Program-made: the position numbers and the translations under genes
Shown: piece by piece, positions 8,751-59,682 of the stretch
How the letters are laid out: every line of letters begins with the position of its first letter
How positions within the stretch are numbered: the first letter of the stretch is position 1
Source of the DNA: Omphalotus guepiniiformis
Lineage: Eukaryota; Basidiomycota; Agaricomycetes; Agaricales; Omphalotaceae
Direction of reading: 5' to 3'
Length of the DNA: 64,000 nucleotides
Assembly (NCBI GenBank): GCA_028554645.1
Contig: JAQOOI010000018.1
Span: 1,116,001 to 1,180,000, forward strand
The notes under the pieces: generated by a model
The model's database searches: none
Told to the model about the DNA's origin: nothing
What the model saw: only the letters and a program-made list of their open reading frames with translations

Positions 8751-9298
8751 ACAGACAAGGTATACACCCATATAAACTCTGTATACACCCTGTATACATG
8801 TCACCCTGTATACCTGTATACACTCTGTATACACCTGTGTACACCCTGTATACACCCTGTATACACCCTGTATGCACTCTGTATACACTCTGTATCCAGC
8901 CTGACCCTGTATACACCCTGTATACACTCTGTATACAGGATTATACACCCTGTATACACCCTGTATACACCCTGTATACACTCTGTATACACCCTGTATG
9001 CACTCTGTATACACTCTGTATGCACTCTGTATACACCCTGTATGCACTCTGTATACACTCTGTATGCACCCTGTATACACCCTGTATCCACCCTGTATCC
9101 ACCCTGTATACACTCTGTATACATCCTGTATACATGTCATCCTGTATACCTGTATACACCCTGTACATCTGTCACCCTGTATACAGACAGTGTGTATACA
9201 GGTGTACAGGGTGTATATGGGTGTATACAGGTGTATACAGGTGTATACACATGTGACAGGGTGTATACATGGTGTATACAGGTGTACAGAGTGTATAA
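8750..9298. repeat. TGTATACA minisatellite, arranged head to head
   Basis: About 8765-9180 is a tandem array of an 11-bp unit CTGTATACACC with variants (CTGTATGCACT, CTGTATCCACC). From about 9190 to 9298 the orientation flips to GGTGTATACAG units. Each unit contains the self-complementary TGTATACA. All long ORFs here on both strands are periodic artefacts of the repeat and are not genes. Confidence 0.95.
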
Positions 9299-29744: not shown

Positions 29745-30060
29745 CTGTCTTTTGTATACTTGATTCACGATGTGCTTCCTGGACCTGCTTTTCGATGCCT
29801 GAGGCTCTCGGGCTTCAATTTGGCTGCTCGCATATCTGTTCAGACAATGGTACAGAATGACAGTCGCCGAAATGAGGTTGATCTGACCATTGGTGGCTGG
29901 CTAGGGTCAAGACTCGCTCTTTGACGAGGTGAGTTTTTGATGGCTCAAATCTGCTGGTTATAAGTAACAATCGTTCATACTCAGCATCGCAAAGGAATGT
30001 TCGAAACAAACCTAATCTGCAATGAAGACTACTCACGAACGAAGGCGTGCGGACTGCTTT
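29745..30060 (+). repeat. dispersed repeat R, uninterrupted copy
   Basis: About 310 bp that matches 50930-50971 plus 57567-57850, where the same repeat is split by the 6.6-kb helicase element. Shared blocks include TTCCTGGACCTGCTTT, GCTCGCATATCT.TTCAGACA, GAATGACAGTC.CCGAAAT and GACTACTCACGAACGAAGGC. Noncoding as read. Confidence 0.8.
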
Positions 30061-49098: not shown

Positions 49099-50662
49099 TT
49101 ACCTCGAAGGAGACTTCTGCACTTCATATCTGACGTGAAGACCATTTTCACGCTCCTCCCTTATGATAGTAATCATCTTATAACTACCTCGCTTTCCGTG
49201 CTTCTTTCGGTGGTCCAGTCGCTGCAACTTCGGACACAGCTCAACCAGCTTCATGATGGCCAAATGCATCCGGTTATTATCGTGCCCAACCGCTGTCCAT
49301 AGTCCAGGCCCATGAAACACCTCCAGATTGCGGAAAGATGATAAAAAGTCCAACCATACATTCTTGGTACCTGTCAGCAGGGAAAAAACCACAAATGCGA
49401 AAAAAAACATACATTCAATTCCAAAAACACACTGCTAGCCACTGATAGCCACCTCAGCGAAGGACAAGAGTTTGAAACCAGGTTTAGTTCGTCCGGGCAG
49501 TGTATCCCGATAATCCCAAGTTTCTGAAGACTGCCAAAATTGAGTCGTGACAACACGTCTTCGTCGAAAAAGAAACGGTCAAGGTGGACGCAGTCCAGGT
49601 TCGGCAGCTGTTCCACAGACCTGAGCGAATTGACAAAACAACGCTCCGTGGCAAGTCTCTTTAACTTTGGGAGGCCCTTGAAAGGAACAGTTATTCCAGA
49701 CGAAGGATTACACCAAAGATCTTCTAGCAGTGGATGATTCTCCAAAAAGATATTCCATCGTTCGTTCATAGAAGCGGTTGTGCCTGATTGTAAGAAGAGC
49801 GTCAGCTGTCTGAGTTGCGGAAATACGCAGTCAGCTACGCCGATGGCCTCAATTGGGAGTTGCAGACCCTAGACCACATGATGCCGTTTAGCCCTCTGCA
49901 AGAGAAAGTGGGTATCAAAAATGATACCTTGAGCATGGGTGTCTGCTTGAGGAGGTACTTGAGAGAAGCACCAGCAGATGGGGATGCCCACACGTCCCCT
50001 AGCAATGAAATGTGTTGGAGAGCGGTAGTGCTCCAAACCTTGAGAGTACCGAGATCAACATAAATTCCCATGGGTACTAAGGAACCCACATTTCGAAATA
50101 GCTCTGCGGTGGGCGGCAGCAGGATCCTCAAGTTCCCAGAAATGACCAAGCGCACGAGCGATGGCAACTTGTTCAGCGTCCGGAGAATGTCCTCCTCCTG
50201 AACAATACTCATGGGGATGATGAAGTTGACAGAGTCAAAATCCCACATGAACACCTCTAGCTTCTTCATGTACCCCAACGCCACACAAATGTCTTTGATG
50301 CGCTGCTCTTCCTCCTTCACTGTTTCCAGTACCCCGTCGGGTTCAGAGATGCTGGGAACGAGTGTCGAAGGATACCGGTCAGGGGCCGAATAGTCATCTC
50401 GTTGGCACAGTTGGATTTCTCTGATATGGCGCGTGAGATCAGAGCGTTTAGCCAAATGGGCCCACAAAGCAGGCATTCGATGTCGGGCCCTAATAATTCG
50501 ATACTCGCTATGCCTAGGAATAACTACCCCAGCAAGCCGACGACACGTCAAAGCCAAGGAGATAAGGTCAACATGAGAGTCGATTTCTGCAAAGATCTCG
50601 TCAAGAATTTCTGGCGGAAGCTGGGAAAGCTTCTCAGCACTGATAGACGACCTGAAAGGCAT
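49099..50662 (-). CDS. F-box protein with leucine-rich C-terminal region
   Basis: ATG at 50662 (MPFRSSISAEKLSQLPPEIL). F-box: LSQLPPEILDEIFAEID, LISLALTCRRLAGVVIPRH. Leucine-rich-like strands follow (LNKLPSLVRLVISGNLRILL, LKVWSTTALQHISLLGDVW; then after an intron LENHPLLEDLWCNPSSG, LPKLKRLATERCFV, LPNLDCVHLDRFF, CPSLRWLSVA). The last exon reads WLDFLSSFRNLEVFHGPG, LVELCPKLQRLDH and IIREERENGLHVRYEV, the common end of agaricomycete F-box genes. Predicted SCF ubiquitin-ligase adaptor; target unknown. Intron borders in the 3' half are approximate. Confidence 0.75.
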
Positions 50663-50929
50663 GATCCATGCAAGCTCGACTTGTAAGATGGACGACGAGC
50701 GAGCAAAACCAGTTCTGGCAGTGTAAGCGAGCGGAGGGAACAAGAAGCAGCAGTGGATGATGGCAGATTCTCCCAGAAAAGCCAACTCCAGTCTAGCTCC
50801 TGGCTTCTTGCCGCAGTGCGACAAACCCGTGAGGGAGGTTTCTCCACGTGCTCAATTGCCGACGCGTCCCGCCATTTCCGGTCCGAGTGCCGGAAAAGTG
50901 CCGGAAACAGTTCAATCTTCCTTTCTTGG

Positions 50930-50971
50930 TATTTTTATTTACAGCGACAATGGTTCCTGGACCTGCTTTCT
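50930..50971 (+). repeat. dispersed repeat R, left half of interrupted copy
   Basis: Matches 29745-29788 (TTCCTGGACCTGCTTT and upstream TTATTTACAG.GA against TTGATTCACGA). It stops at the left boundary of the helicase element; the rest of the repeat continues at 57567. Confidence 0.7.
50963..50971 (+). repeat. 9-bp target site duplication, left
   Basis: CTGCTTTCT, identical to 57567-57575 on the other side of the element. Confidence 0.85.
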
Positions 50972-50980
50972 TAGGCTCGT

Positions 50981-51060
50981 GACCAGCTCCCTTCCTGTCT
51001 TATGGCCACATGGCCTCTCGGACCGTACGTTCCGATAATAAGACTAGGAAGGGGCTGGTC
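50981..51060. repeat. left terminal T-shaped palindrome
   Basis: Outer stem: GACCAGCTCCCTTCCTGTCT (50981-51000, then TAT) pairs with ATAAGACTAGGAAGGGGCTG plus GTC (51038-51060), about 22 bp with two single-base bulges. Inside are two small hairpins side by side: GGCC-ACAT-GGCC (51004-51015) and CGGA..TCCG (51019-51034). The whole can fold as a stem with two cross-arms. Confidence 0.85.
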
Positions 51061-51242
51061 CAAACGGTAGCGATTTTGGCAGGCGCTGCCAAGTGTGACA
51101 TTGGACTTGGTGGTTTTCAGACTTATAACTTCAAAAAAAATGTTTCTGAGAGTGTATGTTATTCTTTTGTTTCACGCAACGCTCTTTCGATTCATGTATA
51201 TGTCAAAAAAAAAATTTCTCGAGAAAATACACTATACTAAGA

Positions 51243-53880
51243 CTAAGAACGCTTAGGCGGCTGGTAAGGGATGAAACGAATATTGTCAGCAGTGTACTGT
51301 GGTGATTGAGAGGTATACGGATGTAAATTAGAGGGGGCAGGTGCAGTATGGTAAAGACCAGAGGCAGGATATGAGGGATAATGACAGGTTGTCCAATTGA
51401 ATGGTACAGGAGAGGATGGTTGCATCTGGTTTGAAGGAGATATCAGAGGAGCGAAGAACAACGGCTGTTGAGCCACAGAGTACTGAGTGAAAGGGGGCAT
51501 ATGATAATGAGCAGCGGGCGCCACAACGTTGGGATATGCGCGTAGTGGTTGGGCAAGCGCATACTGAGGTTGAGATACAAGTCGCGCGTAAGGATTTTGA
51601 AGCAGGTGATTCGAGCTCACAACGCTCGGAGTGCTCGACGACGTTGTGCGCGTCCGTGTCAACGTGGTTGGCGAAGTCGTAGCCGCGTCTTCTGCAGCCA
51701 CGTTAACGCCGGCGCCTCGTGACTGCCGTTTGTTGCTCTCACTCTCCTCATTGCTTTCTGCACCTCGCTTCGTTCCTCTCGACGGTGTTGGTTTTGGGAC
51801 GAACGCTGGCATCTCTAGCTGTGAGATGAAGTCCCATAGCTCGTCTCCGTACTTCTCGAACCACGTCCACTGACCCGCAAGCACCTTTTCCAACCTTGAC
51901 TTCGATTTAATGGGCCCGACTGACGACAGCAGCTCAATCGTTTCGTCTTTGAGGATCCCCGAAGCTGCGAAGAGCGTATAGTTGTAGTCCCGGTCAAAAA
52001 CGGTTGTACGCCACTTATGAAGCTCTCGTTGGGTGCTACGGCAAGGTCGACCTCGCCTGATCTTAGACTGCCGCGCTGTCGGCTGCGGGGGACTGGGACG
52101 CACGCGATCGAGAAGCTCAGGGCTACAGAGGTCGCAGCATGGTACGGTAGGTTGAACTGAATCTGTCAATCCGCGTGAGTTCATGTCTAGCAATGGAGTT
52201 TGTGTACTAACGAACAGCACCATGATCATGGTAGATCTTTGTCAGGACCTGACGACGGCACACGCCTGTTTGCACAAGTACATAGAGCCCTTCGTTGGGT
52301 GCGTCACAATCAAGAGGTGGTTCGGTTTTGGTGTAGTTTGTGTCTCGTCTACCGCCATGCGAGCCTCGATGTATGCCACACGCCTCTGCATATGCAGCTC
52401 GATCCTTTGCTGACCATTTTTGTTTTTTTTGGTTACCTTTAGCTTTTTTCATGCTTAGGCTCTTGGATGAAGCCATCGTGTCCTCAGTGACGTTATTTGT
52501 AGCTCGGAGATCTTCCGTGTAGGCACTTCGTTCTGCAAGGAGCACGGCAAGACCGTGTCGATCTTGTGCACGCGCCGCTCGACCAGCTCGTTGGACGAAT
52601 GCCGAAATTGTTCCTGGCAGTTTCCATTGGACCACAATATCGATGTCAGGTATGTTGCATCCCTTTGAAAGGACAAATGAATAAACGGTCTCAGCAGGCA
52701 AACACAAAACATACCATTCCTGCCGCATCTGTGCATACGAGGACACGGACTTCTCCCGACTTGAAGCGTTGCATGACTTCATTGCGATAGTGGCTTGAAT
52801 ACGCAGCGCTGTATGTCTGTACTACATTGCTGGATCGCAATGCGAGAGGTAAGAGTTCTCTCAAATGGTCCTCGATATCAATTCCTTTAACAACGTTGTC
52901 TGCGTAGACGAAGGTCTTCGGAATCTGCAAGGCTGATTGGGTGTCCAAGGGGATAATGAAGTCGAGATCTCTATAAGAGTGCAAGGGATGCTGAATTGCC
53001 CTGACAAGTAGCGATACGTTTGCTCGGTCGTTCCCTATGTCGATATATTCAAAGTCTTTGCCGTACTGCAACTTTGTCAGTATGTCTCGCCGAACACGAG
53101 AGGGTAGTGTTGCCGACATGGCAAGCATGGGGATTTTCGGTGGAAGCAGAGCTCTGATAATACCCAACTCCCCGTATTTCTTCCGGAATCCTTCACCCCA
53201 ATGTGACACTACGTGCGCTTCATCGATTGCCACCATCAACACGCGTTTTCTGAAATCTGGGTCACGCAGAACTCCAGCAATGAACCGCTTCGACAAGAGC
53301 ATCTCTGGAGATAGTATGACAACCTGCCACTTCCCCCGACAAATGTCCTGTAAGTTTAATGATTAGGCTGTCTTTTTCACTACTGACGTGATCACATACA
53401 GCCATTACTTCTGACGTACAACCACCGAGATTGCTGTTAATTGCTACTGCATCAAGCTTAAACTCAGTTTTGAGTGTCTCGACCTATATATGTGAGCAAG
53501 CAATTGTTTGAGTTTATAGTGTCAGAGCAAGGACTCACCTGTTCATTTTGCAGTGCAATCAGTGGTGAGACAAGAATCGTGACTTTGCCTTTGCTCGTTT
53601 CGTGAACGTGAGGCCCCGCAACCAAGGTTGTCTTCCCTGACCCTGTACCTGCATGTACCAGGACATCATGGCCACGCAGGAGAGCACTCGTTCCTTGTAT
53701 CTGGAATTCTCTGGCTGCAAAGTGTGAAGGCCATCCAAAATGAGCCTTCATCTGCTCACCCAAATCCTCTGACCTTGGATCGCTGGCTGGCGTACTCGAT
53801 ATAGTCGGTTGTTCATTACTACTTGCTTGCGTGTTTCGTGGGTGGGTTATTTTGTTGGTGGGTTGAATTTCAGGGAGCAT
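51243..53880 (-). CDS. RecQ-like DEAH-box helicase of the mobile element
   Basis: Five exons: 53880-53539, 53483-53400, 53347-52715, 52662-52221, 52156-51243; every phase closes, giving 804 aa. Motif I HAGTGSGKTT (Walker A, near residues 72-81), motif Ia VSPLIALQNEQ, motif II IDEAHVVSHWG (DEAH), motif III AMSATL, motif V region VLVCTDAAGMGCNIPDI, motif VI QRAGRAARAQDRHG. Before motif I, FGWPSHFAAREFQIQG is the RecQ motif 0 type. The C-terminal part has CCDLCSPELLDR and a Ser/Thr/Pro-rich disordered tail. It would unwind DNA 3' to 5'. Such RecQ copies are often subtelomeric or repeated in fungi; here it is enclosed by transposon ends and divergent from the DUF6589 gene by 47 bp. Confidence 0.88.
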
Positions 53881-53927
53881 GTCGAAGTCAAGGCAAAACT
53901 CATGATGAATTTGATTTAGGAGCTGTC
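53881..53927. promoter_or_regulatory. 47-bp shared divergent promoter gap
   Basis: The only sequence between the helicase ATG (53880, minus) and the DUF6589 ATG (53928, plus). The two transcripts must overlap or start inside each other's 5' regions, which implies co-regulation. No TATA box is obvious. Confidence 0.5.
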
Positions 53928-56900
53928 ATGTCCCTTCCGCGCTCAAGTCCACCTCTACAACTGCTCGGTGATTCCAGCGATGCAGAATCCTGGCATGATA
54001 CCGATGACGATAATGCAAGCGACTTAGACGATGTACCTCTAGTAGTAGAACCTCCGACCAATGTGACACCTCGGCCTTTTTACCCTCGGCTCTCTTCTCC
54101 ACCTCTGAGAACACCCTTGCTATCGATTCCTTTGCCATCCTCCAGCGATCCTGGTGTCATACCTACGAGCCCAGTCACAGGAAGGACACCGGCAGAGCGT
54201 GCTAAGAAGAATCGAGCAAAAGCGGCACGAAAAAAACGTATGAAACTATACCTCGCCAAGGCGAAAGCCTCTGCTCATAAAACTCGGTCCCAGTCACACA
54301 CTATCAATGCTGTCCTGCGCTATCTTCGTGAACGTAGCGTTTCTCTAATGGAGTTCATGGTGCATGTCTTTGATCCTTCCAAAGGTCACGGCAATACTAG
54401 ATGGGAGTTCTTCAGAAAGGAGGGAAATGTTTCGAACATTTTAGACCTCTGGATGTCAACCCAAAACTCTTCAAAAGGCCGGAAGGATACATCGAGATGG
54501 GCTATAGGTCATGTTGTGCAGTTGGTTGGCTCAGAGGCTCGAAAAGTCACGCGATTGGGTATTCTCCAAAGCATCTGCACACCGATAACTGTGGACAACG
54601 TTTTGGGATTTGATCTACAGAGGATATTTACGCAGTTCAAGGCAGGTCTGGCGTGTACAACAGTTGAGGTGTTCCAAGCCCTTGCTTCGGCTCCTCGACG
54701 GTTGAACACCCAAACTGAAGGAAGGCAGCGGCGTACTGAGACAGTATGTCTTCTGAACTGAACCTTACTAAAACCTGAACTCATATTGTTATAGGTGGTG
54801 ACGACGTCAATCCTCGCAGGTCTGGGTGAATACAGTCAGGCAAATAACTTTCCGAAACGTCTCATGGCATTGTATCTATTTGCTACGGGTACCTCGCGAC
54901 AGGTCATCTCAGTTCTTTCACGCTTTGGTATCAATGAGAGCTATTCCAATCTCGTAGCCAAGGATACACGATCCAAGAAACAACGGGCAAGCGACGATGC
55001 TGCATATGAGGCTGGACGGATTCCCGATCCACCCAAAGGTGGCACTTTGAAGCGGTTGTCAGACTCAGCGAGAAACAAGGCTCGTGAGATTGCTGCAGTT
55101 GGACTGTATGGCACGGTATATGACAACATCAACATGTCTTTCCGAAATGCGGAGCAGACCATAGGACGCCACGGTCAGTTGCTACTATCATTTTTGGTTC
55201 ACAATGCTCACTCTCATCAACTAGACACACAGGAGAATGGGACGTGTGCTACCATCTGGCCACTTCGTCGTGCTAAAGCGGAGGATATGAAGCGGTCTGA
55301 CCATACTCGAGCATTCAACGAAGCCCTACCCCTGTCTCTCAACGACATTCTCCACAATGAAGAAGACGCACGCATGTTCCGTGAATGTCTGATTCATTGT
55401 ATCTTGCGTATTATTGTAGCCCATGGTGGTGAAGGGTTCAAGTCCTTTGAAAAAGACGTCGAGGAATGTGTACCACGGACGGGACATTTGATCGACCTCT
55501 TGTCAGAGGGGGCTACGAAGCTCTACCCACTACCAGCATTCGAAATTGATGAGTCGACGATTGTTGGAAATGCTGAGGTAGATAGCGCTATTGTCAAGGA
55601 GCTGCGAGTACAGAAGTATAGGTGGTTTTGGGAGAGAGTGCGCATTGTAGCTGGAGATCAGCTCTCGTTAGCACGGCTACGTGCTATCTTCAACCTTCGT
55701 GCGGGAAAGGAAGGTGGTTATGCATCGTTCGGGTGGGGAGTCTGGCTGCCTGGCCTGTTTCATGGGAAGATTGCTGATATGCATGGAATGTTTGCTGTGC
55801 ACTGGGGCAAGGCTAACTGTGGAAATCGGAACCCTGGCTGTCTCGCCTACCATAATACTCAACTCAATCGACTACCAATCTCGCCTACCTCATTACCCAC
55901 CTTTCGCACCTGCCGTGATCTTGTTTTCGTGTCCCTTTATGCTCGCGTCCTTCATTGCCTTCTTCTAGTATCTGGCTCTTCAACGTTGGAAGTATGTGCC
56001 TCCAAGGTCCGCGACTTTGAGGATCTCTATACATATGGTAAAGAGATATATGAGAAATACACCAATTCTCAAGATGTTTTCAACCTACGATGGGAGCGGT
56101 CAATGGAACTCGCTGAGATGACAGAGGAGGATTTTTCGGCACCGAAGCCTCGGCCAGCTGAGGGAGATATGGTTTACGAGAATGCTGTTCTCTTTTTGCG
56201 TGATGCGCTCATCTCGCGTGAATTCACCGATGCGGTCAAGCGCGGTGATTCAGGGCGTGTTCTTTTCGTTCTCAAAGTATGGGCGTTAAGCTTTCGTGGC
56301 AATGGAAGGTCAAAATACGCATACGAGATGCTTCACATCATACATAATCTGACTCATGTCTGGCCAAGAAACATTCGGTGTGTGATTTCTCGATAGCTTG
56401 TGTGTGTTGCTCACTCTGTCTTGTATAGACAAATTGTCTTAGACAATTGGCTTCTCAACCCATCAGGACGGCCGAACTCTTGGGTCGAGGTTGACCTCGT
56501 ACAAGAGCATATGAATTACTGGATCAAGGTACAGTTTTGGCATCTGCTTGACTGTCTCGGAGTCTGATAATGTCTATAGAGTTATTACAAAGCTCAGGGT
56601 AGCAACGCGTCTTGGGAATGGCTTGAGATGGTGGCACCATGTGTTCAAGCCCTTCGTCACATTACTGGGATGATAAACGGAGTGTTAGGAATCAATGTTG
56701 GCACGAAACATAGTACACCTGACCTGTCTGCCGATATTGCGAAGCTAATGTACAGCTTGGAGGAACATCAGGTCTATAGCATTCAAAAGGGTCGTATCCT
56801 TGATGAGGATGATCCTCCAGTTCCTGATGTTGTCTCTCTGGGCCTCCAGTCTCTTTCAGATGCTGCCAACAACCCTCTCGATGAATATAACCGTGCGTTT

Positions 56901-57266
56901 GCACGACTTCAGGCTCGTTACCACATGCACCCCATAGTTGATGATACACCTTCTGAGTTCACATCAGCTACATTGGTTTACCAATCTTCAATTACACTCG
57001 CTAGACAAGTTGCGCACTCTAATGCACCTGTACAGAGTCTTTCAACCGAATCTCAAGGAGCCCTTGTTGATGAAGACAATGTTGAGTCTGACTCTGAAGA
57101 TGATGATCTAGCACTTCTAGATGACGATGAACCAACCTTAGAGCGTCTATCAGCAGAAGATGTTGCTCTTGATATGGATGATGATACTGGTCAGTTTGTT
57201 TTGGATGAGGAGTACTGGCAAGAGATAGAGGCTAGCAGAGACGATGACATGGTGGACAGTGAATAG
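53928..57266 (+). CDS. DUF6589-type protein, candidate transposase
   Basis: Five exons: 53928-54743, 54795-55173, 55225-56377, 56429-56528, 56580-57266; all phases close, 1044 aa. The N-terminal 120 residues are Pro/Ser-rich and then basic (AERAKKNRAKAARKKRMKLY, a nuclear signal). The centre has the features I associate with DUF6589: VYDNINMSFR, ENGTCATIWPL, FEIDESTIVGNAEVD, VAGDQLSLARLRAIFNLRAG, LPGLFHGKIADMHGMFAVHW, NNLTHVWP-like end, then SWVEVDLVQEHMNYWIK. The C-terminus is strongly acidic (SDSEDDDLALLDDDEPTLER). Asp in YDN (about 382) and Asp in GDQ (about 543) could be part of a DDE/D-type RNase H-fold centre; this is my inference. Its place inside TIRs and a target duplication argues for a transposase. 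Confidence 0.8.
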
Positions 57267-57462
57267 CAAGTAGATAGTGTGATAATATATATAATATTAG
57301 TTGCATTACATTCCTCCAATGTTGTTTTCACAGTAGATGCACTGTTGTTATACAGTACAAGGGATTTGTGTTATGTTCCTATTGATATGTCTGAGCTAGA
57401 AATGTGCAAATCACTAAGTCCAAAGTCACAAACCGTGACCCTGCCAATGTGACGCCCGTTTG

Positions 57463-57557
57463 GACCAGTCCCTCCACAGAGTATCTCGGTTTGTTGCACA
57501 AACAAACCAGATTTGGATTGTTTATCATCCAAATATACTCATGTGGAGGGACTGGTC
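57463..57557. repeat. right terminal T-shaped palindrome
   Basis: Outer stem: GACCAGTCCCTCCACA (57463-57478) pairs perfectly with TGTGGAGGGACTGGTC (57542-57557), extended by GAGTAT/ATACTC. Two internal hairpins: GGTTTGTT..AACAAACC (57488-57508) and ATTTGGAT..ATCCAAAT (57511-57534). Same plan as the left end, but with unrelated cross-arm sequence. Confidence 0.9.
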
Positions 57558-57566
57558 GCGAGTCTA

Positions 57567-57575
57567 CTGCTTTCT
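57567..57575 (+). repeat. 9-bp target site duplication, right
   Basis: CTGCTTTCT, identical to 50963-50971. Confidence 0.85.
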
Positions 57576-57850: not shown

Positions 57851-58363
57851 GTTATGGCTCTTGATTCCCGAAACTAATCTCTTGCGTTACTTTCCAACCA
57901 GTACTCGCACTCTGGCTACAGGCTAGCGTTCGCTTGGTACTCTACTCCGAGACAGCATCACCAATGGCCATGGGTTGCAGGCGCTGCAATGCGCATTGTG
58001 TTAATCACCTCAGTTCTCCGTCCATTGAATGTCTCAGATACAAGTTTTCCCCGGGGATACACGGTCCACATGTAATGCTGTTCAAATACGCCACATAGGT
58101 GTACCTGCTCAACCCTCTGTTTCCTTGGGACGGGTCTTCCTCGCACAAGTTCCGTATACAACATGTGTCAGAGTCCACAGGCTACCGTGGCTCAACTGCG
58201 ATGCTTTTGTGTTCAGCACCAAGCGACGGATGTTACTCCACCTAACTCCGTCAATATCAAGGCTTGGGCCACTTGGAGTCTGTGTGGCTTGTATATAAGT
58301 GTCTTGCAGGATTTTCGCGGCTGTTCTAATCATATCTCCTGCTTCTCGTTCCTCCCAGACAAC
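57851..58363. other. intergenic
   Basis: No firm gene. The frame of the following F-box gene is open upstream, but no better start than 58364 is seen. Confidence 0.35.
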
Positions 58364-59682
58364 ATGGCCGACTCTTGCAATGATCAGGGCGTGTCTCTTC
58401 CCTCAGAACTAGCAATGAAAATCATTTCCCACCACCACGGCGACAAAGAAGCGTTGCGCAACGACTGCCTCGTCTGCAAGGACTGGTGTAACATCGCTCA
58501 ACCCCATATTCTATCCGTAGCCCGCTTCTCTAGTCTCGGAGATCTCGTGAAATGGGAAGTTTACACTTCCTCCTCTCCTCACATTCTACAACTACTCCAA
58601 GTCGTGGTCATTGACTCTGGCCGTGAACCTTTCATTTGGATTGGGAGTGAACGTTACGACCAACGGCCTTTATTGGATCTTTCTCCAACGGATTTCGATG
58701 AACTTCCTGTTATGCCGAACGTTCGACTGCTAGTCTGGGCGCCTCACCATCGGTGGTACCTACGCACGACACCTACTATCCTTCGACTCTTCGAAAAATT
58801 CCCAGCACTCGAAGCGATCTCCTTGAACTCCAAGTTCGTCACCGTCTCTCAAGTCAAACTACTTCTTACTTTTTGCAACTCCATCAAACGTCTTGAGCTT
58901 CGGGATGAATTCTTCTTGACTAATTATTTAGACGAGTTGGACTATGGAAGTTCTCTTCCCAGTACCCCGATATATGACCTCACTCAACTTGAAGAACTGG
59001 TGTTATCAATCAGTTCCAAACTTTCGAAACATTCCCCGGTGGACTCGGATTGGATTGTGGGTGATATTCTGCATCATAGTGCTCCTACGGCACTACGTTC
59101 TCTGGTCATACAAGGCGATCGAGTGCTTACCATTCAATCTTTCTCTCGTATAATACGCATGGCTGCACCAAGTCTTCGTCATTTAACGTTACAACCTTCA
59201 TCAGTATATTTGTTCGGTGAGTGCACCAGGTTGAACTCATGTAGACGTGCTGTAACCTGATGATCCTTTACGTCTCAGATCGAAGCCCCTTGTCGCCTCT
59301 GGTCGGTGTACTACCTTTTCTCCGTTCACTGTCATTAGGACCTATCAACCTCGACGATGACGGGATCGATTCTCTCGAACATACCACAAATATTCTTTTA
59401 TTGTTTCCTCAGATGTTGCCTTCCCTGGTCACGCTCGATTTGTCGTTCGAGGTGGCGGATCTGGAACACCTTTGCCAATTTCTAGATGAGGTTGACATGG
59501 CCGACGATGTCGAGTCGCTCGAGTCTTTCATTATCGAACAGTCTGTTCCCTCACAACTAAGACTGAACTTCCTGGTTCGTAATTCCGAGAAAGACACTAG
59601 CTTGATTGGAGTACTGGAGGCGATAATAAGAGAAAGGCTTCCAGGTATAGGAAAGCATTTGGAAATATCGTGGGGTGCGTAG
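58364..59682 (+). CDS. F-box-like / leucine-rich protein
   Basis: Two exons, 58364-59216 and 59279-59682 (phase 1 junction G|GTGAG to TCTCAG|AT), 418 aa. N-terminal F-box-like helix set: VSLPSELAMKIISHHHGDKE, NDCLVCKDWCNIAQPHILSV. Then repeated leucine-rich strands: ILRLFEKFPALEAISLNS, CNSIKRLELRDEF, LTQLEELVLSISS, APSLRHLTLQPSSVY, LPFLRSLSLGPINLDDDGI, MLPSLVTLDLSFEVADLEHL. Ends LPGIGKHLEISWGA. Likely SCF adaptor; target unknown. Unrelated in detail to the F-box gene at 49-50.7 kb. Confidence 0.75.

Follow-up and report, generated by a model that had tools for sequence, protein, structure and literature searches.

The stretch analysed here comprises 64,000 nucleotides of contig JAQOOI010000018.1 of the agaricomycete Omphalotus guepiniiformis (assembly GCA_028554645.1, positions 1,116,001 to 1,180,000) and is referred to as the window. 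Its segment 50972-57566 (6.6 kb; C18:1166972-1173566 in genome coordinates, C plus a number denoting a contig of the same genome) carries a RecQ-like helicase gene and a gene for a DUF6589 protein between inverted ends and, judged from sequence, is a complete two-gene DNA transposon. The helicase gene (51243-53880, minus strand; exons 53880-53539, 53483-53400, 53347-52715, 52662-52221 and 52162-51243) encodes 806 amino acids. The DUF6589 gene, which encodes a predicted DDE transposase of 1044 amino acids, occupies 53928-57266 on the plus strand (exons 53928-54743, 54795-55173, 55225-56377, 56429-56528 and 56580-57266). Both gene models were spliced by hand; each contains four GT-AG introns and is open from ATG to stop once spliced. 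The divergent start codons are separated by 47 bp (53881-53927), which probably serve as a shared promoter region.

The perfect 9-bp target-site duplication CTGCTTTCT lies directly outside the left end (50963-50971) and directly outside the right end (57567-57575). The terminal inverted repeats are TAGGCTCGTGACCAG at 50972-50986 on the plus strand, with the outermost 9 nt forming the tip, and TAGACTCGCGACCAG at 57552-57566, read on the minus strand; they agree in 13/15 positions and both ends are TAG-tipped. A subterminal inverted repeat, GTGACATTGGACTT at 51095-51108 (plus strand), matches its minus-strand partner at 57416-57429 in 13/14 positions. The boundaries given in a preliminary description of this DNA proved to be exact, since TAGGCTCGTGACCAG begins at 50972 and the complement of TAGACTCGCGACCAG finishes at 57566, and the perfect 9-bp direct repeat reported there does flank both ends. 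The terminal inverted repeats of 15 bp claimed in the same place are present as inverted ends, but the repeat extends beyond 15 bp, and a predicted hairpin interrupts it in each end.

When the whole window was scanned for inverted ends flanked by perfect 9-bp repeats, this element ranked first with an end match of 12/14, the runner-up reaching 10/14. The same 12/14 match was reached by 1 of 300 first-order Markov resamples of a 10.5-kb segment and by none of 8 overlapping window segments free of the element. Taken alone, the match of ends and duplication at this locus is suggestive; sister copies with both ends and both genes settle the status as an element beyond the single locus.

Two-gene and short copies in the same genome

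The genome has DUF6589 at seven sites, six of which have a helicase within about 2.2 kb, measured domain to domain. The seventh site (C16:174478) is a 243-bp fragment, and a helicase remnant without DUF6589 is located at C20:500014. Five of the six paired sites, the window element included, combine the two ends with both genes and a perfect 9-bp duplication, and these elements represent three families. The four sisters are C73:866997-873762 (6766 bp, duplication AGCCTTTTC), C74:587954-594330 of family A (6377 bp, CGGAAGGGT) and the two family-B elements C18:1394302-1400543 (6242 bp, GGGTGACAG) and C18:1361395-1367645 (6251 bp, GGGTACGTA). Their tblastn matches hold stops or frame changes, some of which are introns. 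The sixth paired site, on C74 near 951-958 kb, has kept its left end and the two genes; its right end is decayed, and no duplication was found there. Between the two family-B copies the identity is 99.2% over 6267 bp and stops at the termini, and the flanking duplications differ; the two-gene unit has therefore moved as a whole, and has done so recently. In addition, a lone family-B terminus with one mismatch is found at C18:1002567-1002588.

These five elements confirm that both genes are the cargo of one element, and the search for copies lacking shared ends or duplications, which had been proposed as a check and was run within this genome, did not refute it. The two genes had also been described as intact and divergent. 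Both are indeed open and divergent in the window element, but this layout is not fixed: it applies to the window family, and the genes of families A and B are convergent. The helicases of families A and B show only 36% and 27% identity, respectively, to a 203-amino-acid exon of the window helicase, and the pairing of helicase and DUF6589 would therefore be old.

A paralogous, uninterrupted target was identified at 29773-30052 (plus strand), where the alignment covers 21 bp on the left side of the insertion point and 271 bp on its right side. It is identical in 228/297 columns (77%) to the flanks joined through one 9-mer copy and carries a single 9-mer, CTGCTTTTC, which agrees in 7/9 positions and lies within the 21-bp left arm; an 8-bp gap follows just to the right of the 9-mer. 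Because the left arm is short, this evidence is support and not proof. The search covered the joined sites of the window element and of the second family-B copy; the latter matched nothing but its own two flanks. The right flank of the window element is itself part of a repeated segment, with the paralogue near 29.8-30.1 kb. The element is flanked by two open reading frames, 49835-50824 (minus strand) and 58163-59260 (plus strand), which we take to be F-box/leucine-rich-like by their motifs.

The possibility that two neighbouring host genes are flanked by coincidental repeats could draw on the one resample in 300 with equally good ends and on the absence of any transposase name among the best 120 DUF6589 relatives listed. 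It has to be set against five elements with perfect duplications, the end of the 99.2% family-B identity at the termini and the uninterrupted paralogue of the target. We attach practically no credence to such a coincidence, and the sister copies led to its rejection.

The genome contains 33 matches to the end pattern versus 4 to the reversed pattern. Twenty candidate elements from all families were examined; the 9-bp duplication is perfect in 16, near-perfect in one and absent in two, and the remaining one has a single recognisable end. Twelve candidates were paired by their ends alone, and nine of these have a perfect 9-bp duplication, one matches in 8/9 positions and two (C19:647144-647743 and C77:1663206-1663819) have no duplication. 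The candidates on C73, C39, C61 and C21 were completed by seeking the duplication near the expected end, which gave exactly one match each, always beside the variant tip TAGGCTCTCTTGCCAGC. Three further candidates came from scans requiring both ends and the duplication; the true pair scored 13/14, and the next best scored at most 9 or no other pair was listed. Additional solitary or partial ends (e.g. on C13, C15, C34, C35, C63 and C75) were left out of the count.

Thirteen of the 20 candidates are short copies of 174-614 bp with window-family ends. Those on C37, C77 (three copies) and C74 (C74:281625) are 98.5-99.5% identical to one another. Over 150 bp, the right ends of the C39, C61 and C21 copies match the right end of the C73 two-gene element at 96.7-99.3% identity, so that these copies were seemingly moved by such an element. 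The data suggest that the transposase of the two-gene copies may move the short ones.

Several individual copies deserve description. The 174-bp copy at C20:756779-756952 has a perfect duplication and keeps the tips and the outer hairpin arms; its inner arms are missing, and a deletion between short repeats of CGTTTC seems to have removed them. Unless this deletion postdates the insertion, the copy represents a natural test of minimal ends. Close to it lies an unrelated 668-bp element (C20:757413-758080) with 14/14 inverted ends AGGACCCCCGAAAG and the 8-bp direct repeat GACGGGCT. At C19:647031-647743 two ends stand head to head with mismatched outer flanks, which suggests that one copy went into another or that the two recombined. 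The interrupted 8-kb copy C76:102537-110585 has the perfect duplication GGCGAATAC and resembles a 0.6-kb short element with about 7.4 kb of extra insertion in its left end. A minisatellite array at 8760-9297 of the window consists of units of about 10-19 bp around GTATACACCCT/ACAGGGTGTATAC, and similar repeats occur near the C37 copies and inside or near the C76 copy.

The DUF6589 protein and the helicase

The plus-strand protein matches PF20231 with 1e-101. A Pfam scan of seven open reading frames of the window returned only DUF6589, DEAD and Helicase_C above the cut-offs and no MULE transposase domain. Three acidic residues of the DUF6589 protein, D382 (codon 55122-55124), D543 (55656-55658) and E809 (56505-56507; all plus strand), are the predicted first, second and third catalytic residues and form a conserved set compatible with a DDE triad. 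When AlphaFold models of DUF6589 were compared with known structures, the Hermes, P-element, RAG1 and Transib transposases outscored unrelated folds, and in the structural comparison VIA rows 1-22 were all transposases or RAG1. The highest fold scores were obtained with hAT and P transposases, at 7-12% identity in the structural alignments. The model of a longer homologue (P0010) was clearer than the first, C-terminally truncated model (P0002), with which Foldseek had given nothing relevant among the best 50 matches listed. A DUF6589 sequence profile searched against the PDB gave a single match at chance level. The earlier proposal that DUF6589 is the transposase thus gains support from the predicted structure together with the conserved D/D/E set; the protein is very probably the transposase of the element, with a predicted RNase H-like fold and D382, D543 and E809 as its predicted triad.

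The helicase shows domain matches above the cut-off to PF00270 (8.4e-24) and PF00271 (5.5e-18). Its match to TIGR00614 (E 1.1e-47) reaches 162.9 bits, which is below the curated cut-off of 219.8, and RecQ and WRN are its best solved relatives. It contains the motifs GTGSGKT, DEAH, SAT and QRAGRAAR and, downstream of the RecQ core, a C...CC..C cluster, which in our view resembles the RecQ zinc module. It may act at the ends of the element or in its replication, as the preliminary description proposed.

At least 382 proteins are related to DUF6589 at E <= 0.001. Among the best 120 of these 382, the names are hypothetical, uncharacterized, unnamed or DUF6589 domain-containing, and never transposase; the named sources are presumably all agaricomycetes, as judged by genus. 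The list of helicase-exon relatives comprised the best 120 of 253. Sixteen of the 120 listed DUF6589 relatives share the source and the exact longest-contig size with a listed helicase relative. In a shift control, in which all sizes were moved by 1 to 60 in both directions, the mean was 0.96 and the maximum 4. One of the sixteen pairs, from Candolleomyces aberdarensis, bears consecutive gene names (EST38_g13443 and g13444). The pairing is likely to be widespread in other fungi, as these co-locations indicate. A search for DUF6589 relatives in viral_contigs gave 111 pattern matches, none of which was confirmed.

The helicase might be a passively captured host gene without any part in transposition, with DUF6589 alone moving the element. 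In line with this, short copies too small for either gene have moved, so that neither gene is needed in cis. However, the helicase has been kept beside DUF6589 in three families despite identities of 36% and 27% and a differing gene order, the two share contigs in other fungi, and a mere passenger would be expected to drop out in some lineages. We regard a purely passive helicase as improbable.

Fold-backs in the ends and a possible mechanism

At both ends of the window element the nine-base tip is followed immediately by a fold-back of the form GACCAG...CTGGTC. The left one spans 80 nt (50981-51060, plus strand) and includes two inner hairpins; the right one spans 95 nt (57463-57557, minus strand). 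Treated as single-stranded DNA, both ends fold much more strongly than their shuffles, with a z of -7.0 for the left end and of -10.3 for the right end, versus +1.7 and -0.1 for two internal control stretches. Formation of hairpins by these arms is a prediction.

Alignments of window-family ends comprised 14 of 17 left ends (A2) and 13 of 16 right ends (A3). C77:1693877, a near-copy of its sisters, C20:756779 with its deleted inner arms and C76:102537 with its interrupted left end were dropped; family-A and family-B ends were each folded individually, outside the alignments. Across the 14 left ends (8 distinct), 98.4% of the cells pair and 8/24 pairs show changes on both sides, a number that was reached by 1/500 shuffles and compares with 0 to 2 in slid controls. 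The outer stem accounts for six of these in 15 pairs, with zero broken cells; from one subfamily to another, the two sides of the left-end stem have changed together. In the right-end alignment (13 ends, 10 distinct), 99.3% of the cells pair and just 2 pairs have changes on both sides, a number that 194/500 shuffles reached as well and that is therefore not above shuffles. In the other families, fold-backs with unrelated stems were found in the right end of family A (z -5.5) and in the left end of family B (z -3.1); the right end of family B folds weakly (z -1.9), and the left end of family A has no fold-back (z +0.4). Fold-backs in the ends are usual but not universal.

The fold-backs could instead be two inverted transposase-binding sites and not hairpins. 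Palindromes can undergo arm-to-arm correction, and the matched changes could also stem from this process, by template switching between the palindrome arms. Consistent with binding sites, CCAG/CTGG is invariant in both arms, as expected of a site for a protein, the double changes at the right end do not exceed shuffles, and the 174-bp copy without inner arms still has a perfect duplication. On the other side stand the left outer stem, in which 6/15 pairs have changed on both sides with every cell still paired, and the recurrence of hairpins with unrelated stems in family-A right and family-B left ends. We grant the binding-site explanation a chance only slightly short of even.

With good confidence we consider the segment a two-gene transposon, likely of the AcademH type, in which DUF6589 is the predicted DDE transposase and the RecQ-like helicase likely unwinds or remodels hairpin-bearing ends. 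DUF6589 would recognise and bind the GACCAG...CTGGTC end modules, bring the two ends together and cleave at the TAG tips through DDE chemistry. The strands would then be transferred to a target cut with a 9-base stagger, which would give rise to the 9-bp duplication. The helicase would likely open, resolve or remodel the hairpin ends, or help to repair the donor gap, and sequence does not discriminate between end remodelling and donor-site repair. Movement would be cut-and-paste rather than replicative. A more far-reaching version is that DUF6589 is the hitherto unrecognised transposase family of a major agaricomycete transposon group with nine-base tips and long covarying hairpins at both ends, and that RecQ is carried because transposition uses extruded, single-stranded hairpin ends, so that DNA structure would mark the ends of a DDE transposon; this we consider rather doubtful.

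If the transposase assignment is true, DUF6589, with at least 382 proteins at the threshold given above, would shift from "hypothetical protein" to "transposase", and this would call for corrected gene numbers and RecQ inventories in mushroom genomes. The ends and the intact two-gene copy would provide a concrete system for studying the reason for the presence of a RecQ helicase in some DDE transposons.

Comparison with known transposons

Helitrons are not known to have inverted ends or a target duplication and were rejected, as the element has both. MULE (MuDR) transposons share the 9-bp duplications and possess a MULE transposase domain; we know of no helicase in them, and they were rejected on the missing MULE domain in the Pfam scan. 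With hAT (Hermes) and P transposases DUF6589 shares the predicted RNase H-like core, in which the third acid lies in a helix after a helical insertion. However, hAT and P elements make duplications of 8 bp and not 9 bp, and to our knowledge they have no RecQ partner. Kolobok elements target TTAA. AcademH, which belongs to the Academ superfamily, was reportedly defined by Kojima in 2020 in Mob DNA 11:15.

KolobokH, a lineage of DDE transposons in fungi, likewise carries a RecQ helicase and in this respect resembles the element. Its helicase lies downstream of the transposase domain, whereas in the element it is a separate gene on the opposite strand; one rhodophyte Kolobok has RecQ on the complementary strand (PMC9587614). 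KolobokH was rejected on the 9-bp duplications of varied sequence and the separate, opposite-strand helicase of the element.

AcademH is described as a DDD/E transposon with a helicase and with 9 or 10-bp duplications (PMC10045372), present at low copy in Basidiomycota (PMC10799480). Copies of fungal Academ elements match PF00270 and recQ_fam, and annotations frequently list them as host genes (PMC6416283). The element agrees in its 9-bp duplication (9 bp in 17/20 candidates, 16 of them perfect), its RecQ-like helicase, its DDD/E transposase, by prediction, its basidiomycete host and its low copy number. The likeness to AcademH is one of duplication length and gene content.

The element and its transposase DUF6589 could also be real and yet form a DDE lineage separate from Academ that acquired RecQ independently, as in KolobokH. 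In favour of this, Kolobok as another DDE superfamily has a fungal RecQ-carrying lineage (PMC9587614), and hAT and P transposases give the best scores with the predicted fold. Against an independent origin, duplication length, fungal host, RecQ-like helicase and low copy all agree with published statements on AcademH or fungal Academ, and we consider a separate lineage unlikely. Membership of the element in the AcademH lineage is likely.

Among the titles and abstract openings listed by literature searches, none described hairpin ends in Academ elements, and neither end hairpins nor DUF6589 were noticed in the portions of the AcademH literature covered. The term "DUF6589" was not found in the literature searched, whose scope did not include the paper defining AcademH, so that the link may already be in print. 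The parts of PMC8290104, PMC9674265, PMC12730594 and PMC4522978 that were available contained nothing altering our reading of the element. The preliminary description had implied that an element uniting RecQ and DUF6589 stands on its own; the element is real, but fungal Academ elements with a recQ helicase were already in print (PMC6416283 and PMC10045372). The kind of element, a helicase-carrying Academ-like transposon, is therefore known, and DUF6589 as its predicted transposase and the predicted hairpins in its ends are useful additions.

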